DNA from: Bacteriovoracaceae bacterium
GTDB taxonomy: Bacteria; Bdellovibrionota; Bacteriovoracia; Bacteriovoracales; Bacteriovoracaceae
Assembly: GCA_947446575.1 (NCBI GenBank)
Contig: CANFHC010000019.1
Coordinates: 1-60,214 of the forward strand
DNA: 60,214 bases
Direction: 5' to 3'
Under the pieces are notes generated by a model, which saw nothing but the letters and a program-made list of their open reading frames with translations, did not search any database and had not been told where the DNA came from. The stretch's first letter is position 1, and every line of letters begins with the position of its first letter. Of the stretch, positions 15,338 through 25,800 are shown in pieces. A program made the translations under genes and the position numbers.

Positions 15338-15937
15338 TTAACGAGTTTTACTGAACATCTCTAATATCTTGATGTACATCAATGCAGTGTTTTTAGCGTC
15401 TTCAAGTGCAGTATGTTTCACTTCACCCATTCCTAAATGTTGCATAAGTTTTGATCCAGAAGAGCATTCTGATGGTAGATACTTGAGGTCAATGAGGGTA
15501 TTTGCTGTAGAAGACAAATCTAGATTTCTATGATGAAAGTATTTTCTCATAAACTCCCATCCTAAATCTCGATTCAAAAAAGGAAGATCAATGGCACTCA
15601 TTGATTTGCCAAAGAGTATTATTTTTTCTTTATTTTCGTTTTTAAAATAGGCCTTCACTTCTTTACTTGTAAGATAGGTTTCCAATTCATCTCTAAAGCT
15701 GTCCATTTGAATACCGAAATTGTGGGCCTTATTGATGAGTTGCTCGTTATGTTCAATTACCCAAGTGGCAAGATTTGGTTTGAGAGAATCAAAAGAGGGG
15801 CATTTAATAAAAAAATTGCGTGCTAGTGATTCTTCTACACGTCTTGTTTCTGTGCAAAATGGAATCATTCCAAATTCTATAACATAATCATTTTCATTAA
15901 GGCCAGTTGCTTCTAAATCAATTGATAAGTAACGCAT
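15338..15937 (-). CDS. DnaQ/RNase T-type 3'-5' exonuclease
   Basis: A 199-residue DEDDh exonuclease. Motif I is SIDLEATGL (Asp-x-Glu), motif II lies in SAIDLPFLNRDLG, and motif III is HTALEDA (His-x4-Asp). Substrate could be DNA or the 3' ends of RNA; no polymerase or helicase domain is fused. The stop is 9 nt from that of the convergent NlpD-like gene, with no terminator between them. Confidence 0.85.
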   Translation of the reverse strand: MRYLSIDLEATGLNENDYVIEFGMIPFCTETRRVEESLARNFFIKCPSFDSLKPNLATWVIEHNEQLINKAHNFGIQMDSFRDELETYLTSKEVKAYFKNENKEKIILFGKSMSAIDLPFLNRDLGWEFMRKYFHHRNLDLSSTANTLIDLKYLPSECSSGSKLMQHLGMGEVKHTALEDAKNTALMYIKILEMFSKTR

Positions 15938-16000
15938 AAATATACGATCTCGGGTTAGTGGGGGGAGTAAGTTTATGCTAAAATATCTTTGAATTTTTGT

Positions 16001-16270
16001 CTACAAATAAGCGACTTCTACAATTGAGACTTCAGCGTCATTGATGAAGTTTTCTAAAGAAATTTGGCAAGAAATTAATTCGTTATTTACAATACATTTT
16101 TTACAAGTGCCTTCGCCGTTGCAGCTAGAGGCAATGGTGATAGCGTTGGCCCTTAAAAAATCCATAAGACTCATATTCTTTAGATTTGAATGAGGTATAG
16201 AGATAGTTTGGACTATTTTATTAGAAGCCAATCCTTTTACTATAATTATTTTATTCAAGGTGAACACCAC
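16001..16270 (-). CDS. Small 2Fe-2S ferredoxin
   Basis: An 89-residue protein with the plant-type iron-sulfur pattern: SSCNGEGTCKKC (C-x5-C-x2-C) followed by a fourth Cys in LISCQ. The usual loop is about 35 residues longer between the third and fourth Cys, so this is a compact member. The start is uncertain: GTG 16270 overlaps the upstream lipoprotein gene by 16 nt, and TTG 16258 would overlap its stop as TTGA. Likely co-transcribed with that gene. The redox partner is unknown. Confidence 0.75.
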   Translation of the reverse strand: MVFTLNKIIIVKGLASNKIVQTISIPHSNLKNMSLMDFLRANAITIASSCNGEGTCKKCIVNNELISCQISLENFINDAEVSIVEVAYL

Positions 16271-17577
16271 AGCTTCGCAGTTGAGCGGTCATCGATTATT
16301 AGACTTCTATCGGCCCGTCCCTGGTTATTAAATGTGGCAGAGCCAACAATATCACCTAAAGCATCTACATGGTAAATGGGGAAATTCATGCTCAAGAAAA
16401 AATCTAACTGAGATTTTCGTCCGCGTTTTGATTCATAAAGTATTCTATCTGGAGAACTTAAAAAAAGATGTCGTGAAAAATTTAAAATTTCTTTTAGGGA
16501 TTGATAAGAACTCACAAGGGCTATGTCATAAGTGACTAGGTGTTTTAAGTGTTGAACTGGATTTCTTCCAGAAGTAGAAAAAAGAACAATATCTTCATCA
16601 TTGTTAAAAAATTGGCAAATGGGAAGAGGATCAATTGGCCCTTTTGAAGAAATTAGATAAGTATCCTTAATGTTTCTTAAAGATTTATCAAGAAGTTCAG
16701 AGCTAAGAGCGATAAAAAAATTTTCACCATCTTTTATGGCGAAGTAATGTGATTTTTTTAGAGAAGAATTAAGTAACTCTTCTCTGAGGCTATTCTCTTT
16801 ATTAATGTCGGTATTACACTTTACTGTTAAGTTGTTTTGCCCAACATCAATATCAGTTAGTGAGTTTTTTGAAATATTAAAATTTGCATCTTGATTCGAT
16901 TTATCATTGTTAAAAAGTGATATAACTTTTTTATAACTAATTCTTTTAAAGGATTCATGTTTGGTGAGTACTTCATCGCCTTTAAAAAAGACTTGGCTAA
17001 ATGAATCTTTCTTTTGCAATTCATTTTTATTTTGAAGTAAAAAGCTTTCGAATTCAGGGCTGACATTTATAGCTTGAGGAACAATTTGATCGAGGCTTTC
17101 GGCCAATGAATTTAGGCTTTTTGAATTATCAAAATTTTTGACAAGATATTCTAATCCTTTAATAAAAGGCATTCTAAAGCTTTCATCTTGCTTAAGGGAG
17201 CTGAAATCAAAATAGTAGGATTTCCCTTTTAAATGTAAAAAATATTGAAGTCTAGCTGATGGGGAAGCCTCGTCTGGTCTCCTGCTCATCTCAATAAGAG
17301 ACAGCATTATAGATTTTTGAATAAACGAATAATTTTTGGTTTCAAATAATTGTCCGATAAAGGGGCTGTAATATTTTAAAGTTGATTCATCTTCTAAAAG
17401 AAGTTGCACTTTATTATTGTCTACACAATACAGGTTTTTTTTATTTTGTTTTACTGGTTCTGAAGTTTTATTTTCAGATATTTCTACGAGGGATTCAACT
17501 TTTTGAGATAAAAAACTGCAGCTAGAGATAACAGAGATGAGTAAAGCCAAGAGCAGTGCTAGAGATTTATTAATCAT
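16255..17577 (-). CDS. Putative lipoprotein of unknown function
   Basis: A 440-residue protein that I do not recognise. From the ATG at 17577 it has a lipoprotein signal (MINKSLALLLALLISVISSC), with Cys20 as the acylation site. The rest is polar, with only two further Cys clustered at LYCV and VKCN and one in the final LWCSP. The last third has beta-rich stretches such as YDIALVSSY. The reading frame is open 21 nt further upstream. It overlaps both the upstream 119-residue gene and the downstream ferredoxin gene, so the three form one operon. Confidence 0.75.
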   Translation of the reverse strand: MINKSLALLLALLISVISSCSFLSQKVESLVEISENKTSEPVKQNKKNLYCVDNNKVQLLLEDESTLKYYSPFIGQLFETKNYSFIQKSIMLSLIEMSRRPDEASPSARLQYFLHLKGKSYYFDFSSLKQDESFRMPFIKGLEYLVKNFDNSKSLNSLAESLDQIVPQAINVSPEFESFLLQNKNELQKKDSFSQVFFKGDEVLTKHESFKRISYKKVISLFNNDKSNQDANFNISKNSLTDIDVGQNNLTVKCNTDINKENSLREELLNSSLKKSHYFAIKDGENFFIALSSELLDKSLRNIKDTYLISSKGPIDPLPICQFFNNDEDIVLFSTSGRNPVQHLKHLVTYDIALVSSYQSLKEILNFSRHLFLSSPDRILYESKRGRKSQLDFFLSMNFPIYHVDALGDIVGSATFNNQGRADRSLIIDDRSTAKLWCSP

Positions 17578-17929
17578 TCTCTTGTGCTCTATCATCAATA
17601 TAGTACAAACCTTCTATCGCTTCTTTGACAGCGGATTTATTTTTTAGTGAATCATGGAAGACGTCTTCTAGTCTTAAGGCTTCGGCCTCAGCATTAGTAG
17701 CTTGCACGATTAATACAATCCACATTCCAGACTGTTTTTCTCCACTAGCTGCTTGGGTAGTAAAGTTTAGAATGCGGTAGCCTTTATTGATAAATTCGTA
17801 AAAAACCTTATCAAATTGTTTTTCTCTGTAACCTGTTGATCGAGGAGGAGGTGAGGGGATAAAGAAGGTAAAAGATTGTATTTTATAGTTCTTATCGAGT
17901 CCCAAGAATGATTTTATTAGATTAAACAC
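17570..17929 (-). CDS. Conserved-looking small protein of unknown function
   Basis: A 119-residue soluble protein without signal peptide. The central block FDKVFYEFINKGYRILNFTTQA followed by GMWIVLIVQA has the alternating pattern of a small alpha/beta domain. I do not recognise a family. It is first in the operon with the lipoprotein and ferredoxin genes and overlaps the lipoprotein start by 8 nt. A run of PSPPPRS near residue 26 is unusual in this Pro-poor proteome. Confidence 0.65.
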   Translation of the reverse strand: MFNLIKSFLGLDKNYKIQSFTFFIPSPPPRSTGYREKQFDKVFYEFINKGYRILNFTTQAASGEKQSGMWIVLIVQATNAEAEALRLEDVFHDSLKNKSAVKEAIEGLYYIDDRAQEND

Positions 17930-18040
17930 GGTTTCTTTCCCGATTAATGTATTTTTATTTTAGTAAATATCAAATTGACACCAATTAATGATAACTCGAT
18001 TTTCCTTAATTGCATGGAAAACTTTACCTACAAAAATATT

Positions 18041-18071
18041 TTTACAATAAAAAAATAATTACGGTTATACT
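18041..18071 (+). promoter_or_regulatory. Promoter of the candidate AGGAU small RNA
   Basis: A -10 box TATACT at 18066-18071 with a -35-like TTTACA at 18041-18046 (19-nt spacer) or TTACAA at 18042-18047 (18 nt). Transcription would begin near 18078, directly before the structured element. The spacer is slightly long, so the promoter may be weak or regulated. Confidence 0.5.
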
Positions 18072-18077
18072 AATAAG

Positions 18078-18154
18078 TGTAAGGGATAGGATGTCCACTT
18101 ACTAGTGGCAGGATGCCAAAAAAAATGGGGCCTTTGCAGGGGGCCCCTTTTTTT
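18078..18154 (+). ncRNA. Candidate CsrA/RsmA-binding small RNA
   Basis: About 77 nt between a promoter and an intrinsic terminator, with no open reading frame. GGAT (18084-18087) pairs with GTCC (18093-18096) around loop AGGAU. TGGC (18106-18109) pairs with GCCA (18115-18118) around an identical AGGAU loop. Between them ACT can pair with AGT around UACU; alternatively CCACT pairs with AGTGG and frees both GGA sites. GGA in a hairpin loop is the binding site of CsrA/RsmA, and CAGGAUG is the repeat of E. coli CsrB. The identity as a Csr-type sponge is inference from structure. Confidence 0.5.
18127..18154. terminator. Bidirectional terminator: small RNA (+) and protease gene (-)
   Basis: GGGGCC (18127-18132) pairs with GGCCCC (18142-18147); seven T follow on the plus strand. 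On the minus strand the same hairpin is followed by a T-run (the A-run at 18118-18125), so it also ends the protease transcript. Confidence 0.9.
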
Positions 18155-18171: not shown

Positions 18172-19011
18172 CTATTTTTTACAAGCTTCAATTTTAATAA
18201 ATGTTGGAAGTCGATTTGCAATTTCACAAGCATTGGGATTAATCGCAGAATAAGCATCCCAATTATCGAATACTGTAGAAGCTCTTCCTTTAACGACAGC
18301 GAAAATTTTAAATTTCCCATTTATTTGTGCAAACAAAGGAGCTCCGCTATCTCCTTCTTCTACTCGGCTTATTGATTTAGAATAGACATAGTTTTTCCAT
18401 TTAAAATCGTTTAGCGTAGCCATTCTTTTTGTATCTGTGCTCATTTCACTAAACGGATTTATGGTTACTGATAGCAAAGAGGCTTGCGGAAGATTTTTAA
18501 TCATACTTGAATGTTCAGTTGGAGAGACGATGTCAGCAATGACGATATTTGCAAATTCTGGAGTTTCTTCATTCCACCAAAGTAATGCCATATCTTCACT
18601 GGGCTCAATTGTTGCTTTTTCTCCTCGTCGAGCGATTTTATCAGTTAGTGAGCGAGGTAGTTCAACATGCACTTCTTTAGTTAATCTGGTTTTTTCAACA
18701 TAACCAATGCGAACAACTTGGCCATCTGTCTTTCTCGTAATGTACTTATATTGTCCGACTTGGATTTCAATTTTTTTCATTCCAGAGATATAAGCTAGCT
18801 TTACACAGTGAGCGGCCGTAATGAGTACATTTTCATTAATTAAAGTAGCATTGCAATAGCCTGGAGTTGAGTCACCTCTGGAGTCAGGAGCTTCGCTTTT
18901 AATTTGCATTACATTAGTCCAGTCGTTCGATACTGCTGGAGATGAATTAGTAAGGGCAAATGCATTTGATATAGTTAAAATTAGAATAAACGCTAATGAT
19001 GTCAATCTCAT
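18172..19011 (-). CDS. Secreted trypsin-like serine protease
   Basis: A 279-residue S1-family protease. A signal peptide (MRLTSLAFILILTISNAFA) precedes the catalytic domain. The triad is complete: His in LITAAHCV, Asp in SEDMALLWW, and Ser in EEGDSGAPLF. I use ATG 19011 because AAAGGAG lies 5 nt before it; a GTG six bases earlier is in frame but would overlap that ribosome site. The enzyme probably acts in the periplasm or outside the cell, which fits a bacterium that digests other cells. Confidence 0.92.
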   Translation of the reverse strand: MRLTSLAFILILTISNAFALTNSSPAVSNDWTNVMQIKSEAPDSRGDSTPGYCNATLINENVLITAAHCVKLAYISGMKKIEIQVGQYKYITRKTDGQVVRIGYVEKTRLTKEVHVELPRSLTDKIARRGEKATIEPSEDMALLWWNEETPEFANIVIADIVSPTEHSSMIKNLPQASLLSVTINPFSEMSTDTKRMATLNDFKWKNYVYSKSISRVEEGDSGAPLFAQINGKFKIFAVVKGRASTVFDNWDAYSAINPNACEIANRLPTFIKIEACKK

Positions 19012-19098
19012 AGGCACTCCTTTGTGAAAAAGCTTGCCGCAATCATCTTATGGATTGATCCCTGATGAAAACTGTCAAATTCAAACATTTCATTAAAA

Positions 19099-21625: not shown

Positions 21626-22723
21626 TTATTTTATTTTTTTAAAGTCTGTCCCAACGAGTTCGAATTCATATTCCTTATAATCTTGATCGTGGGCAGGACA
21701 TCCTCTCCAGAAAATGTGTTTTCCTCGAATTAAATCGCTCACTCCACCACCACAAGTAAATGATGGATCTTGGGCCCCATTTTCAAAATGAGAACATATC
21801 GATTTAGGAAATTCATCATGATCTGTTAAAAGATTTTTAAAATCTTCAAGGTCTGTAACTTTATATGTTTTTTTCGAAAGGAGATTATACCGATTAAAAG
21901 TAGTGGAACTCATTGAAGACTTATCTTCTATTTTTTGAATCTCACTGCCCATGCAATGATTCGTGTGAAAAATTCCACCAACCTGACCATGTGCTAATGC
22001 AGAAACTTTTTCAGAAACTGAGGGAGTAATTTCTAAATGTTCACCACCTTCGGGTGTACTAATAATATAATTATGTCCAGACGTGACAGGTGCATTTAAA
22101 AGAGTTGAGCGCATTTCACCTAAGTTTCTTCCCTCAAGTGTTTTTCTCACCAGCAGCGGCCAGATTAAACCAGTTTTAGCATTAATGGTGTTAATATTAT
22201 TAACCCCAATTAATCCGTTATATGTATTAACGCCCATTAAACCCACACAACCAACAAGTGTTAAAACAAGTTGGGCCAGATGATCATTTCCTGCTGGAAC
22301 ATGAACAAGACACATATAGTTTTTAGCTGAGCGGTGCATATCCCAAGTTTGGCCAGAAAGAACTTCCGACGGCGTTTGAATATGAACAGTGGAACATCCT
22401 TCTTCTGGTAAAGTGATATCTCTAAAATCGGTATAGTTATTAAGGATAACAAGATCGGTTACAGTAAGGTTAGATCCTTTTGCGATGCCTTCTATTTCAT
22501 CTGTTATATGAGGGGCAAATTTTCTAGAAAATGCTAATTGTTCGAGGGCCAGTTCATCAAGTTTTTTTGCTAATGCTGGATTCTTGGCCAGCATTAAACC
22601 TCTTCTGATGTCAGCTAATTCTTTTATGGCAATTCTAAATTCTTCACCGTGAGAAATTCCCCATTCTGTAGAACTTTTTCCGGATTGATATTTAATATAG
22701 GGAAATTGGCAATTTGTAATCAT
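21626..22723 (-). CDS. C45-family acyltransferase/hydrolase (isopenicillin N acyltransferase-like)
   Basis: A 365-residue N-terminal-nucleophile protein related to acyl-CoA:6-aminopenicillanic acid acyltransferase. The self-processing site is Gly109-Cys110 in PEEGCSTV; Cys110 would become the N-terminal nucleophile after autocleavage. Other family marks are SGQTWDMH, GVNTYNGLIGVNN and FHTNHC. I start at ATG 22723, which overlaps the stop of the fusion gene as ATGA. No signal peptide. Such enzymes transfer acyl groups from CoA or peptides to amines, or cleave amides; substrate unknown. Confidence 0.85.
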   Translation of the reverse strand: MITNCQFPYIKYQSGKSSTEWGISHGEEFRIAIKELADIRRGLMLAKNPALAKKLDELALEQLAFSRKFAPHITDEIEGIAKGSNLTVTDLVILNNYTDFRDITLPEEGCSTVHIQTPSEVLSGQTWDMHRSAKNYMCLVHVPAGNDHLAQLVLTLVGCVGLMGVNTYNGLIGVNNINTINAKTGLIWPLLVRKTLEGRNLGEMRSTLLNAPVTSGHNYIISTPEGGEHLEITPSVSEKVSALAHGQVGGIFHTNHCMGSEIQKIEDKSSMSSTTFNRYNLLSKKTYKVTDLEDFKNLLTDHDEFPKSICSHFENGAQDPSFTCGGGVSDLIRGKHIFWRGCPAHDQDYKEYEFELVGTDFKKIK

Positions 22724-25700
22724 GAGTTTAAATACTCCTTCATCGCATCGTAAGATGGACAAACAACATAGTATTCACCGGTGTGAACAAACATTTTACT
22801 TTTAGAGCTTGGAAGAGATCCTTTAAAATATCCCATTCCATCTTCAATATTAATGCAGTCTATTTCATAGCGAGAGAGGTCGTTTACTAATTTTTCATGA
22901 AAAAGTTTTGTGGTCTTTTTATAATCAGCAAGATTTTTTTGAACACTAGAAAATGCGTGGTGATAAGTGTTAAATGAAAACTCATCTCCGTCCCATGTAC
23001 TAATCATCATAAGTGGCTGCTCTAGATAATAGGCATCACTTGCGAAGGCCATTCCAGCTTGACCGGAAAAATAAATTAGTCCCGCGTCTGGAGCGATATC
23101 AGCAAAACAAGAAGCAAAGAAATTTTTATGAGAAAATCTATAAAATTGAGAAGCTGTTTCATTGTAGACAAGAGCAACTTTATATTTTGTGGCAAGCTCT
23201 CTTAGAGATCGCAAAAACTCATAAGGCATTTTCTCCATTGTTTTTTGCAGGACAGGCTCTACCCAGACAGCAAGATAAGTTCCTTTGGCAAATTCGCTTT
23301 CAACTTCTTTTAAAATTACAGGAAAATTATTTTCATTTGGATTAGAAAGTTTAGTAACTTCAAAATAAGGATCTACCTCAATACTAAGCGAACGAGCAAG
23401 GGCAGAGCCATTGCCAAAAAAATGATTTTTAAAAGTTAACATTCTTGTAATGTGATTATCTTTAATCGAAGCAGGAGATTTAACCCAAATAGTTTTAGCA
23501 ACTTTGTCTACACACTCAGATTGACCTGAACATGTATAACCATGGCGCAATCCGGGAGGCAGAACTTCAATAATTTCTTTCACACCTTTTAAAAAAGTTT
23601 CGCTTACAAAATTTGAAAGGCAAACTTTATTAACTGCGAATGGCATTTGCATATCAAAGTAATCTTTATTTAAACTGCTAAGTGAAAGCGGAATAGTAGT
23701 TGCTCTCCCTAAATGCAGAGCGGGTTTTTTCCATTCGGCTTTAGTTGTGTAGTAAAGAACGTCTCTATAAGTTTCAAAATCAGGATAATCTTCTCGAATA
23801 TAGCTTTGTTCAATTGCTCCAAGAGACATATTGATATTAATCATAGCACTAGCAAGACGATCGCGATTGCGACCTTGTATGCGTTTAACTCCCTTGGTAA
23901 GGGCCATAGCTGAAAGAGCATATTTAAGTGATCTGCCTAGACCTGTTCCTTGAAGAGATGTATCAACAGTTACATCTAACATATAAAGAGAATCCTCTTC
24001 TTCAAAGTTAGGATCCATGCGCACACCGCGCTCTAGCGGATAAAGTTTCAATGGGCCAGCAAAAGCAATTCCAACTAGTTTTTTATCGCTTTTATTTACA
24101 ATTCCCAAACAAAGTGAATTTTTATTTAAAACAGTGTGCTCAAATTTTTCGATATCAGTTTGTCTTGCTGGTTCGTAAACTTTTTTCTCTAAGTTAATTA
24201 TTTCCTGTCTGTAATTTAAAAAATTATCAGCAGAAATTTCTATCAGATTAACGTCTGATTTTTCAGTCATTAATTTTTCTATTCGATCGAAAACACTTTT
24301 TGTATTTATTTTTTTACCTAAAACTTTTTCAAGCTTAGTTGTTATTAATAAATCGTGCCATTCATAACTTTCACGAGCTTCAATGGCATCTGTATCGAAA
24401 TGCGTAGGCAATGGATGAACTTCATTTAGAAAAAGTTCTCGGCAAATATAGTCGAGTCGATCGAATAAAAAATCTAAGTCTTTTTCTCCAAAAGCAGTAT
24501 TCAATCTAAAACGGAGAGTTTGTGATCCCGCTGGGTAATAGAGAAGGCCGTGTTTAAAACGAAGATCAACAAATTTATTAAGTAGAGCAGGATCGTGAAT
24601 ATCAAAAGCGAATGCTAGTCCATTTATTCTAGGACGAGAGACAAACTGTGAGTGCTTTTTCAAAAGAGCTTTCATGCGAGGAGCGACTAATTTTTCCATC
24701 TCCCAAATTCGAGCTTGGCATTGGTCGAGACTAATAGCATGAGCATAACCTCTAAGAGCTGAGGCCACTGAATACTCTTCACCTTTAAATATATTTTTAG
24801 TTTCGTGATGACTTAGAACAATTCCAATCTGTGCTTTTTTCGCGCAAATAACATAATCAGGATTTAGTTGCTCACCGTGGAGTCCGCGAAGGTTAAATTG
24901 GCGATGCCAAAAAAATTCTTTACCTAGATGAAAGCCAGTTTGAACTTCATCATGAATGACAGGGATTTTAAAAGTTTTTGCCATTAAGATTAAAGCGGTG
25001 TGAAAGCGATCAGAAGAATAACAATCACCACCTTCACATTGCATAGGCTCTATTAATATAGCAAAAAGTTTTTTTGATAATAGTTGCGTGCGAACAGCTA
25101 GAAGCGAATCTACTTCTTTTTTAACCATTTCATCACTTAGCCATTCACTTGGCACTGTAAAATCTTTTAAAGATGCTTCATTCCAAGTCTCACGCCATTT
25201 AGCGGGCATCGTAACATTAATATTTCCATCATTGAGTTCAGGATATTTAACATACTCCGCCAAATAGTTTTTCCACTCAAAAGGTTCACGTTTTGATTTA
25301 TTCCACGTCGCCGCAAGAGTGATCATCATCCGTCCATGAAATGATCCTTCAAACGCTAAAACTTTGTTAGCGTCTTTATTTACTCTCTTATTATAACAAT
25401 AACCTAAAGCAGTTTCATTAGCCTCAGCTCCTGAATGAACAAAAGTTAATGAAGTTTTTTTCCAATTTAATTTTCTGCTGAGAAAATTTTGAAATGCTTG
25501 GCGCATATCTTTAAATTCTTTGGTCGTGTAATCATTCATCCAAGTTTCAAGAAACTCAGTTGTTCCAAAAAAGATAGATGGATTAAAGCCGTGTCCTAAT
25601 GTTGCAATTTGAGAAGCTGCATCCATTAAATAGTGAGTACTACCATCATGAGCTTCTATACCCATATAAGGACCAATTGAGTCCTTGAGTTTGGTCATAT

Positions 25701-25800
25701 AAGTTTTTTTCTCCGCCGGAATCATTTTATTGGCATAATAATGCTTTAAAATTTCTGAGCCATGATTTGCGTCGTCAGCATTTATAATAGGTAATTTCAT
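22720..25800 (-). CDS. Fusion: lysine 6-aminotransferase-like domain, GNAT domain, degenerate aminotransferase domain
   Basis: A 1026-residue three-part enzyme. Residues 1-465 form a class III aminotransferase with HDEVQTGF (283-290) and the Schiff-base Lys in CAKKAQ (321-322), a pattern close to L-lysine epsilon-aminotransferases. Residues 517-690 are a GNAT acyltransferase with the acyl-CoA loop QGTGLGRS (617-624). Residues 720-1026 repeat the aminotransferase C-terminal fold, but YNETASQF (879-886) replaces HDEVQTGF and SGQAG replaces the Lys segment, so it cannot bind PLP normally. The gene is ATGA-coupled to the C45 gene. I know no characterised protein with this layout. Confidence 0.85.
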   Translation of the reverse strand: MKLPIINADDANHGSEILKHYYANKMIPAEKKTYMTKLKDSIGPYMGIEAHDGSTHYLMDAASQIATLGHGFNPSIFFGTTEFLETWMNDYTTKEFKDMRQAFQNFLSRKLNWKKTSLTFVHSGAEANETALGYCYNKRVNKDANKVLAFEGSFHGRMMITLAATWNKSKREPFEWKNYLAEYVKYPELNDGNINVTMPAKWRETWNEASLKDFTVPSEWLSDEMVKKEVDSLLAVRTQLLSKKLFAILIEPMQCEGGDCYSSDRFHTALILMAKTFKIPVIHDEVQTGFHLGKEFFWHRQFNLRGLHGEQLNPDYVICAKKAQIGIVLSHHETKNIFKGEEYSVASALRGYAHAISLDQCQARIWEMEKLVAPRMKALLKKHSQFVSRPRINGLAFAFDIHDPALLNKFVDLRFKHGLLYYPAGSQTLRFRLNTAFGEKDLDFLFDRLDYICRELFLNEVHPLPTHFDTDAIEARESYEWHDLLITTKLEKVLGKKINTKSVFDRIEKLMTEKSDVNLIEISADNFLNYRQEIINLEKKVYEPARQTDIEKFEHTVLNKNSLCLGIVNKSDKKLVGIAFAGPLKLYPLERGVRMDPNFEEEDSLYMLDVTVDTSLQGTGLGRSLKYALSAMALTKGVKRIQGRNRDRLASAMININMSLGAIEQSYIREDYPDFETYRDVLYYTTKAEWKKPALHLGRATTIPLSLSSLNKDYFDMQMPFAVNKVCLSNFVSETFLKGVKEIIEVLPPGLRHGYTCSGQSECVDKVAKTIWVKSPASIKDNHITRMLTFKNHFFGNGSALARSLSIEVDPYFEVTKLSNPNENNFPVILKEVESEFAKGTYLAVWVEPVLQKTMEKMPYEFLRSLRELATKYKVALVYNETASQFYRFSHKNFFASCFADIAPDAGLIYFSGQAGMAFASDAYYLEQPLMMISTWDGDEFSFNTYHHAFSSVQKNLADYKKTTKLFHEKLVNDLSRYEIDCINIEDGMGYFKGSLPSSKSKMFVHTGEYYVVCPSYDAMKEYLNS

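Follow-up and report, generated by a model that had tools for sequence, protein, structure and literature searches.

A conserved two-hairpin RNA of Bacteriovoracaceae as a probable decoy for CsrA

The window analysed here is a stretch of 60,214 nt from a Bacteriovoracaceae bacterium, a member of a group that consists mostly of predatory bacteria. An intergenic gene for a small RNA (sRNA) of ~77 nt lies between a minus-strand operon (15338-17929) and a protease gene, whose 3' end faces it (Table 1). The plus-strand letters of the sRNA gene, 18078-18154, read TGTAAGGGATAGGATGTCCACTTACTAGTGGCAGGATGCCAAAAAAAATGGGGCCTTTGCAGGGGGCCCCTTTTTTT. The two AGGAU hairpins and the terminator that an earlier note on this DNA had placed between operon and protease gene are all present. 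Four proteins are encoded by the operon, which is kept beside the sRNA family-wide: one of 119 aa, one of 447 aa, a ferredoxin-like protein and an exonuclease of the RNase T type. Neither the 119 aa nor the 447 aa protein belongs to a Pfam or NCBIfam family, and no known domain was found in the latter. Elsewhere in the window, 22720-25800 on the minus strand encodes a 1026 aa protein in which a class-III aminotransferase is fused to a part that weakly matches GNAT and to a third, unassigned part.

Table 1. Features at the sRNA locus (positions in the window).
Feature	Position	Strand	Basis
sRNA gene, two GGA hairpins + intrinsic terminator, ~77 nt	18078-18154	+	covariance model R1, fold
Putative promoter: -35-like TTTACA 18041-18046, spacer 19, -10 TATACT 18066-18071	18041-18071	+	sequence, homologs
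Hairpin 1: GUAAGGGAU / AGGAU loop 18088-18092 / GUCCaCUUAC	18079-18102	+	covariation, loop conservation
Hairpin 2: UGGC / AGGAU loop 18110-18114 / GCCA	18106-18118	+	covariation, loop conservation
Intrinsic terminator, loop with invariant GCAG 18136-18139	18127-18154	+	terminator call, covariation
Divergent neighbour, 119 aa	17570-17929	-	homologs beside sRNA in 48/67 loci, most genera
Divergent operon gene 2, 447 aa, probable lipoprotein	16255-17598	-	homolog beside sRNA, 60/67 loci
Convergent trypsin-like protease gene	18172-19017	-	Pfam Trypsin

The sRNA is preceded by a putative promoter. Its predicted -10 box is convincing: among 96 homologs, 89 have TATAAT or TATACT, nearly always 3-7 nt before the modelled start. 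The -35 box of the promoter-like pair proposed earlier is weak and poorly conserved. A generic promoter scan produced no entry for this promoter because of the weak -35 box and the 19-nt spacer. The predicted fold of the sRNA (-32.7 kcal/mol) is more stable than that of shuffled sequences (-22.9 kcal/mol; z -3.1), and the RNA matches covariance model R1 over its full length with 85.1 bits. R1 finds the sRNA in 45 of 48 genera of the GTDB family, with matches in 122 of its 129 genomes; a handful of these matches are weak and may be terminators. A plain DNA search finds it in 86 of the 129 genomes, where some of the weakest matches span the terminator only. Named relatives that carry it are Bacteriovorax, Halobacteriovorax and unclassified Bacteriovoracaceae.

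Compensatory changes are seen in the stems of the two hairpins. In hairpin 1, two-sided changes occur at seven of nine stem pairs among 94 distinct homologs. The stem of hairpin 2 is 100% paired across homologs, with exchanges of GC to AU. In total, 14 of 18 pairs show two-sided changes in 97 aligned homologs. This alignment, which was fitted to the covariance model, contains 239 two-sided pair cells vs 74 in shuffles, and none of 500 shuffles reaches 239. With the pairing partner slid by one column, about 50% of the cells are paired instead of 93%. The covariation result is the same (81 vs 32) in an independent MAFFT alignment, which comprised 45 sequences. The paired stem changes around fixed AGGA loops that the earlier note had proposed to seek with a covariance model are found, with few losses of GGA. 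Instead of retaining the terminator only, homologous spacers keep the GGA both in loop 1 (96/97) and in loop 2 (85/97, as AGGAU/A/C or ANGGAN). Loop 1 is AGGAU in 67 homologs, AGGAA in 22, AUGGAU in five and AGGAC in two, with one loss. Loop 2 is AGGAU/A/C in 73 and ANGGAN in 12 (AAGGAU, AAGGAA, ACGGAU), with 11 losses; one longer form, AAAGGAUU, still contains GGA. Altogether, 12 homologs lack GGA in one of the two loops. Ten of the loop 2 losses belong to one genus, in a Bacteriovorax subclade with AAGAU or ACGAU. This subclade seems to have lost the site by a single-base deletion, because the remaining members of the genus have ACGGAU, and it retains the sRNA. The distance from GGA to GGA is 22 nt in the window and 20-27 nt among homologs (mode 22). 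The pairing CCACT/AGTGG, once suggested as a switch, was abandoned: it comprises 5/5 pairs here, but only 2-4 of 5 in eight homologs of the same genus.

These loops agree with the binding rules of CsrA. CsrB of E. coli repeats CAGGA(U/A/C)G, SELEX with CsrA yielded RUACARGGAUGU, RsmE binds ANGGAN hexaloops, and a single CsrA dimer can bridge two sites over 10-63 nt, preferably over more than 18 nt (PMC7652899). Across homologs, the sRNA loops fit CAGGA(U/A/C)G or ANGGAN, which bears out the likeness to the CsrB repeat pointed out before, and the spacing of 20-27 nt lies within the bridging range. The genome encodes one CsrA (76 aa from ATG) between flgL and fliW in a flgL-csrA-fliW cluster. 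It belongs to PF02599 (89.8 bits), and RsmE (2jpp) is among its matches. Alignment to solved CsrA/RsmE chains covers the fold through to the RNA-binding end, and alignment to E. coli CsrA takes in the HREE segment with R44, as expected of an intact RNA-binding surface.

The same hairpin pair is found on mRNA leaders. Model R2, which comprises the two sRNA hairpins without the terminator, was applied to 339 genomes from across the phylum. Among the 32 best matches other than the sRNA (about E<=1e-3), hairpin 2 covers the Shine-Dalgarno sequence or the start codon in 21. These start sites belong to divIC-like genes (9), flhG (6), flgK (3), flgF (1), fliF (1) and an unassigned gene (1). Three further matches are located ~105 nt before the gene of a conserved membrane protein and one 114 nt before a gene without an assigned name; the other seven are repeats, coding or unassigned. 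FlgK, FlgF, FliF and DivIC were named by Pfam/NCBIfam, and flhG by its MinD-like ATPase and the order flhF-flhG-fliA in the own genome, where flhG is directly upstream of fliA and where the identification of flhF and fliA was visual rather than model-based. In relatives, a GGA hairpin occupies the flhG start in 26 of 30 leaders, nearly always as ACAGGA(N)GU; the 19 flgK leaders from the family that served as negative control all lack an ACAGGAWGU hairpin. In the own genus, only the start-site hairpin of the flhG leader is canonical because the upstream hairpin has a different loop. The divIC-like leader has two copies here, as it does in most relatives. RACAGGAWGTY is not over-abundant in the genome (12 vs 21 control matches); the signal of the motif is its placement and conservation rather than its number. 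Since R2 was derived solely from the sRNA and still found these leaders, sRNA and mRNAs carry the same signal, and its place on flagellar and division start sites suggests that the sRNA copies CsrA-type operators of the lineage. As to the membrane protein (MNVKFGRSLQTYYAV..; no Pfam family), GGA hairpins ~90-105 nt upstream of its gene were observed at L251, L257, L390 and L364.

Conservation across the family, stem covariation and GGA loops that stay fixed put the sRNA far beyond chance. Loop conservation, stem covariation, loops of the CsrB, SELEX and RsmE types, spacing and the hairpins shared with mRNAs argue that 18078-18154 is a non-coding RNA that probably serves as a decoy for CsrA and would free the leaders of flagellar and division genes. 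Judged from sequence, loops, covariation, spacing and shared leaders carry the earlier proposal of an unusually short Csr sponge, from which the CCACT/AGTGG part has been removed; the core idea of a very short Csr-type decoy appears strongly supported. Against a decoy counts that FliW is already present in the lineage as CsrA antagonist.

The terminator gives some ground for a different reading. It consists of a nine-pair stem (18127-18147) followed by 7 T and is conserved, with two-sided changes at five of six stem pairs. GCAG stands in its loop in 96 of 97 homologs, and this motif is specific to the sRNA's own terminator, as it occurs in 70 of 71 sRNA terminators vs 7 of 84 others. An invariant GCAG is beyond what a pure two-site decoy accounts for. 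A third CsrA site in the terminator was considered and rejected: the motif is followed by GG in 62 homologs and by GA in 27, so that the fixed part is GCAG, with no fixed GGA. The sRNA might instead be a base-pairing RNA like McaS which also binds CsrA as a partner or stabiliser and uses GCAG(G) in the terminator loop as a target-pairing seed. Base-pairing sRNAs of E. coli with at least two GGA sites do bind CsrA (PMC7652899). We consider this unlikely, however, for the motif comprises only 4-5 nt inside a terminator loop, and it is the pair of GGA loops, with the spacing between them, that is under the strongest selection.

Leaders and sRNA could also share another protein that binds GGA hairpins; the sRNA would then be a decoy for that protein. 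The f1 genome, in which no CsrA was detected, is an incomplete assembly, so presence and absence of CsrA cannot separate the two options. However, the loops fit CsrA specificity in detail, both as CAGGA(U/A/C)G and as ANGGAN, and the flagellar targets are like those of CsrA in FliW lineages, which makes recognition by a different protein very improbable.

The genomic context points to one orthologous sRNA locus and no mobile element, since the upstream gene order is kept: of 67 loci checked, 60 have the same divergent operon next to the sRNA. The downstream gene varies; the trypsin-like protease gene is found there in only seven loci and other genes elsewhere. That the RNA is a cis element, i.e. 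a leader, attenuator or terminator of neighbouring genes, would suit its conserved position beside the divergent operon but is scarcely credible, because it has a predicted promoter and a terminator of its own, is divergent from that operon, and faces a variable gene on either strand.

The proposed CsrA decoy is, as a rule, represented by one strong R1 match per genome. The search for copies elsewhere in the own genome, suggested by the earlier note, showed a single-copy gene: the two best remaining R1 matches are terminators, one with a repeat fragment. Four intergenic loci, L240 (G000:C39:18473), L224 (G000:C11:41719), L261 and L262, carry a repeat CACAGGATGTGATGT..GCGAGAGGCAGGAGCCGAAGC with GGA hairpins, which adjoins a terminator in two of them. 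Across the rest of the phylum, R1 in its full form yields weak matches only. Intergenic elements with two GGA hairpins in other families of the phylum, L227/L395 (G167:C1:157652) and L226 (G304:C27:15631), have no terminator of the sRNA type and are possible distant counterparts. When 84,980 species were scanned for the pattern, no convincing member emerged outside the class Bacteriovoracia. The matches there had no terminator or model support and were rejected, apart from two repeat-like copies of a GGA-hairpin pair, GAGCAAACAGGA(A/T)GTTTGCC..CCGGCAGGATGCCG, in the Spirochaetes MAG CALMRZ01 (L142 and L154); this pair could represent either a repeat or a Csr-like element that is unrelated.

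The following mechanism can be envisaged. Transcription of the 77-nt sRNA would start at a sigma-70-type promoter of its own and stop at the intrinsic terminator. Its two AGGAU loops, 22 nt apart, would be gripped by one CsrA dimer. On the flhG-fliA and divIC-type mRNAs, CsrA is predicted to grip both hairpins and so to block translation, and in relatives the CsrA-type pair may act likewise on the flgK, flgF and fliF leaders. When abundant, the sRNA would take CsrA off these leaders, and translation could proceed. As each sRNA offers two sites, high expression would be needed to titrate CsrA. It is plausible that flhG-fliA is the main output of this control and that flhG-fliA and divIC connect the sRNA, in its presumed timing, to the life phases. 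In Bdellovibrio, FliA was proposed as global attack-phase regulator (PMC3627812); control of flhG-fliA by CsrA could therefore be a handle on the predator life-phase switch. The full picture, in which a FliW-type CsrA is governed by a minimal one-dimer decoy that copies the flhG-fliA and divIC hairpins and gates the motile attack phase against growth and division, has in our estimate about an even chance of being right.

The established RNA antagonists of CsrA come from Gammaproteobacteria, a group without fliW, and we know of no established RNA decoy for CsrA in a FliW lineage. Such lineages are thought to rely on FliW, and additional use of sRNAs was left open (PMC4682653). If our reading is true, RNA decoy and FliW act in one cell, and the sRNA is the smallest decoy of dimer size. 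Furthermore, the sRNA family comes with a list of predicted targets. In the open-access literature, nothing was found that joins CsrA, sRNA and Bacteriovorax, and nothing relevant on Halobacteriovorax and non-coding RNA.

Rfam searches at gathering and permissive thresholds assigned no family to the sRNA, and none matched at 18 homolog loci. The best chance match, Atu_C8, was rejected (22 bits vs a cut-off of 50), and the CsrB/RsmB model (RF00018) scores 6.8 bits vs a gathering cut-off of 71. TwoAYGGAY (RF01731) is not among the Rfam matches in the window and 18 homolog loci. The consensus of the GacA/UvrY box is TGTAAGN6CTTACA; by inspection for this consensus, 18000-18077 contains no such box.

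Several known systems resemble the sRNA in part. McaS and GadY of E. coli are likewise small RNAs and contain two or more GGA motifs (PMC7652899), but they act by base-pairing, whereas the conserved core here consists of GGA loops and their spacing. In CsrA-FliW systems, the hag and flaA leaders bear CsrA sites at the start regions of flagellar mRNAs; these are cis elements, while the sRNA would be a separate transcription unit that copies such sites. TwoAYGGAY and Bacillaceae-1 also have two GGA hairpins and are the earlier predicted CsrA-binding sRNAs outside Gammaproteobacteria (PMC4333381). They come from Clostridia and Bacilli (PMC4333381), and their sequence and architecture are unrelated to the sRNA described here. 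With CsrB/CsrC and RsmX/Y/Z it has in common that it is a predicted non-coding RNA, has an intrinsic terminator and presents repeated CAGGA(U/A/C)G loops at a spacing suited to a dimer. In contrast to these gammaproteobacterial RNAs with their many sites, it has two sites in 77 nt, shows no sequence homology to them, lacks an upstream GacA/UvrY box and resides in a genome with fliW; FliW is strongly anti-correlated with BarA-UvrY (PMC4682653). Thus, the sRNA likely works like CsrB and RsmZ, outside those families.
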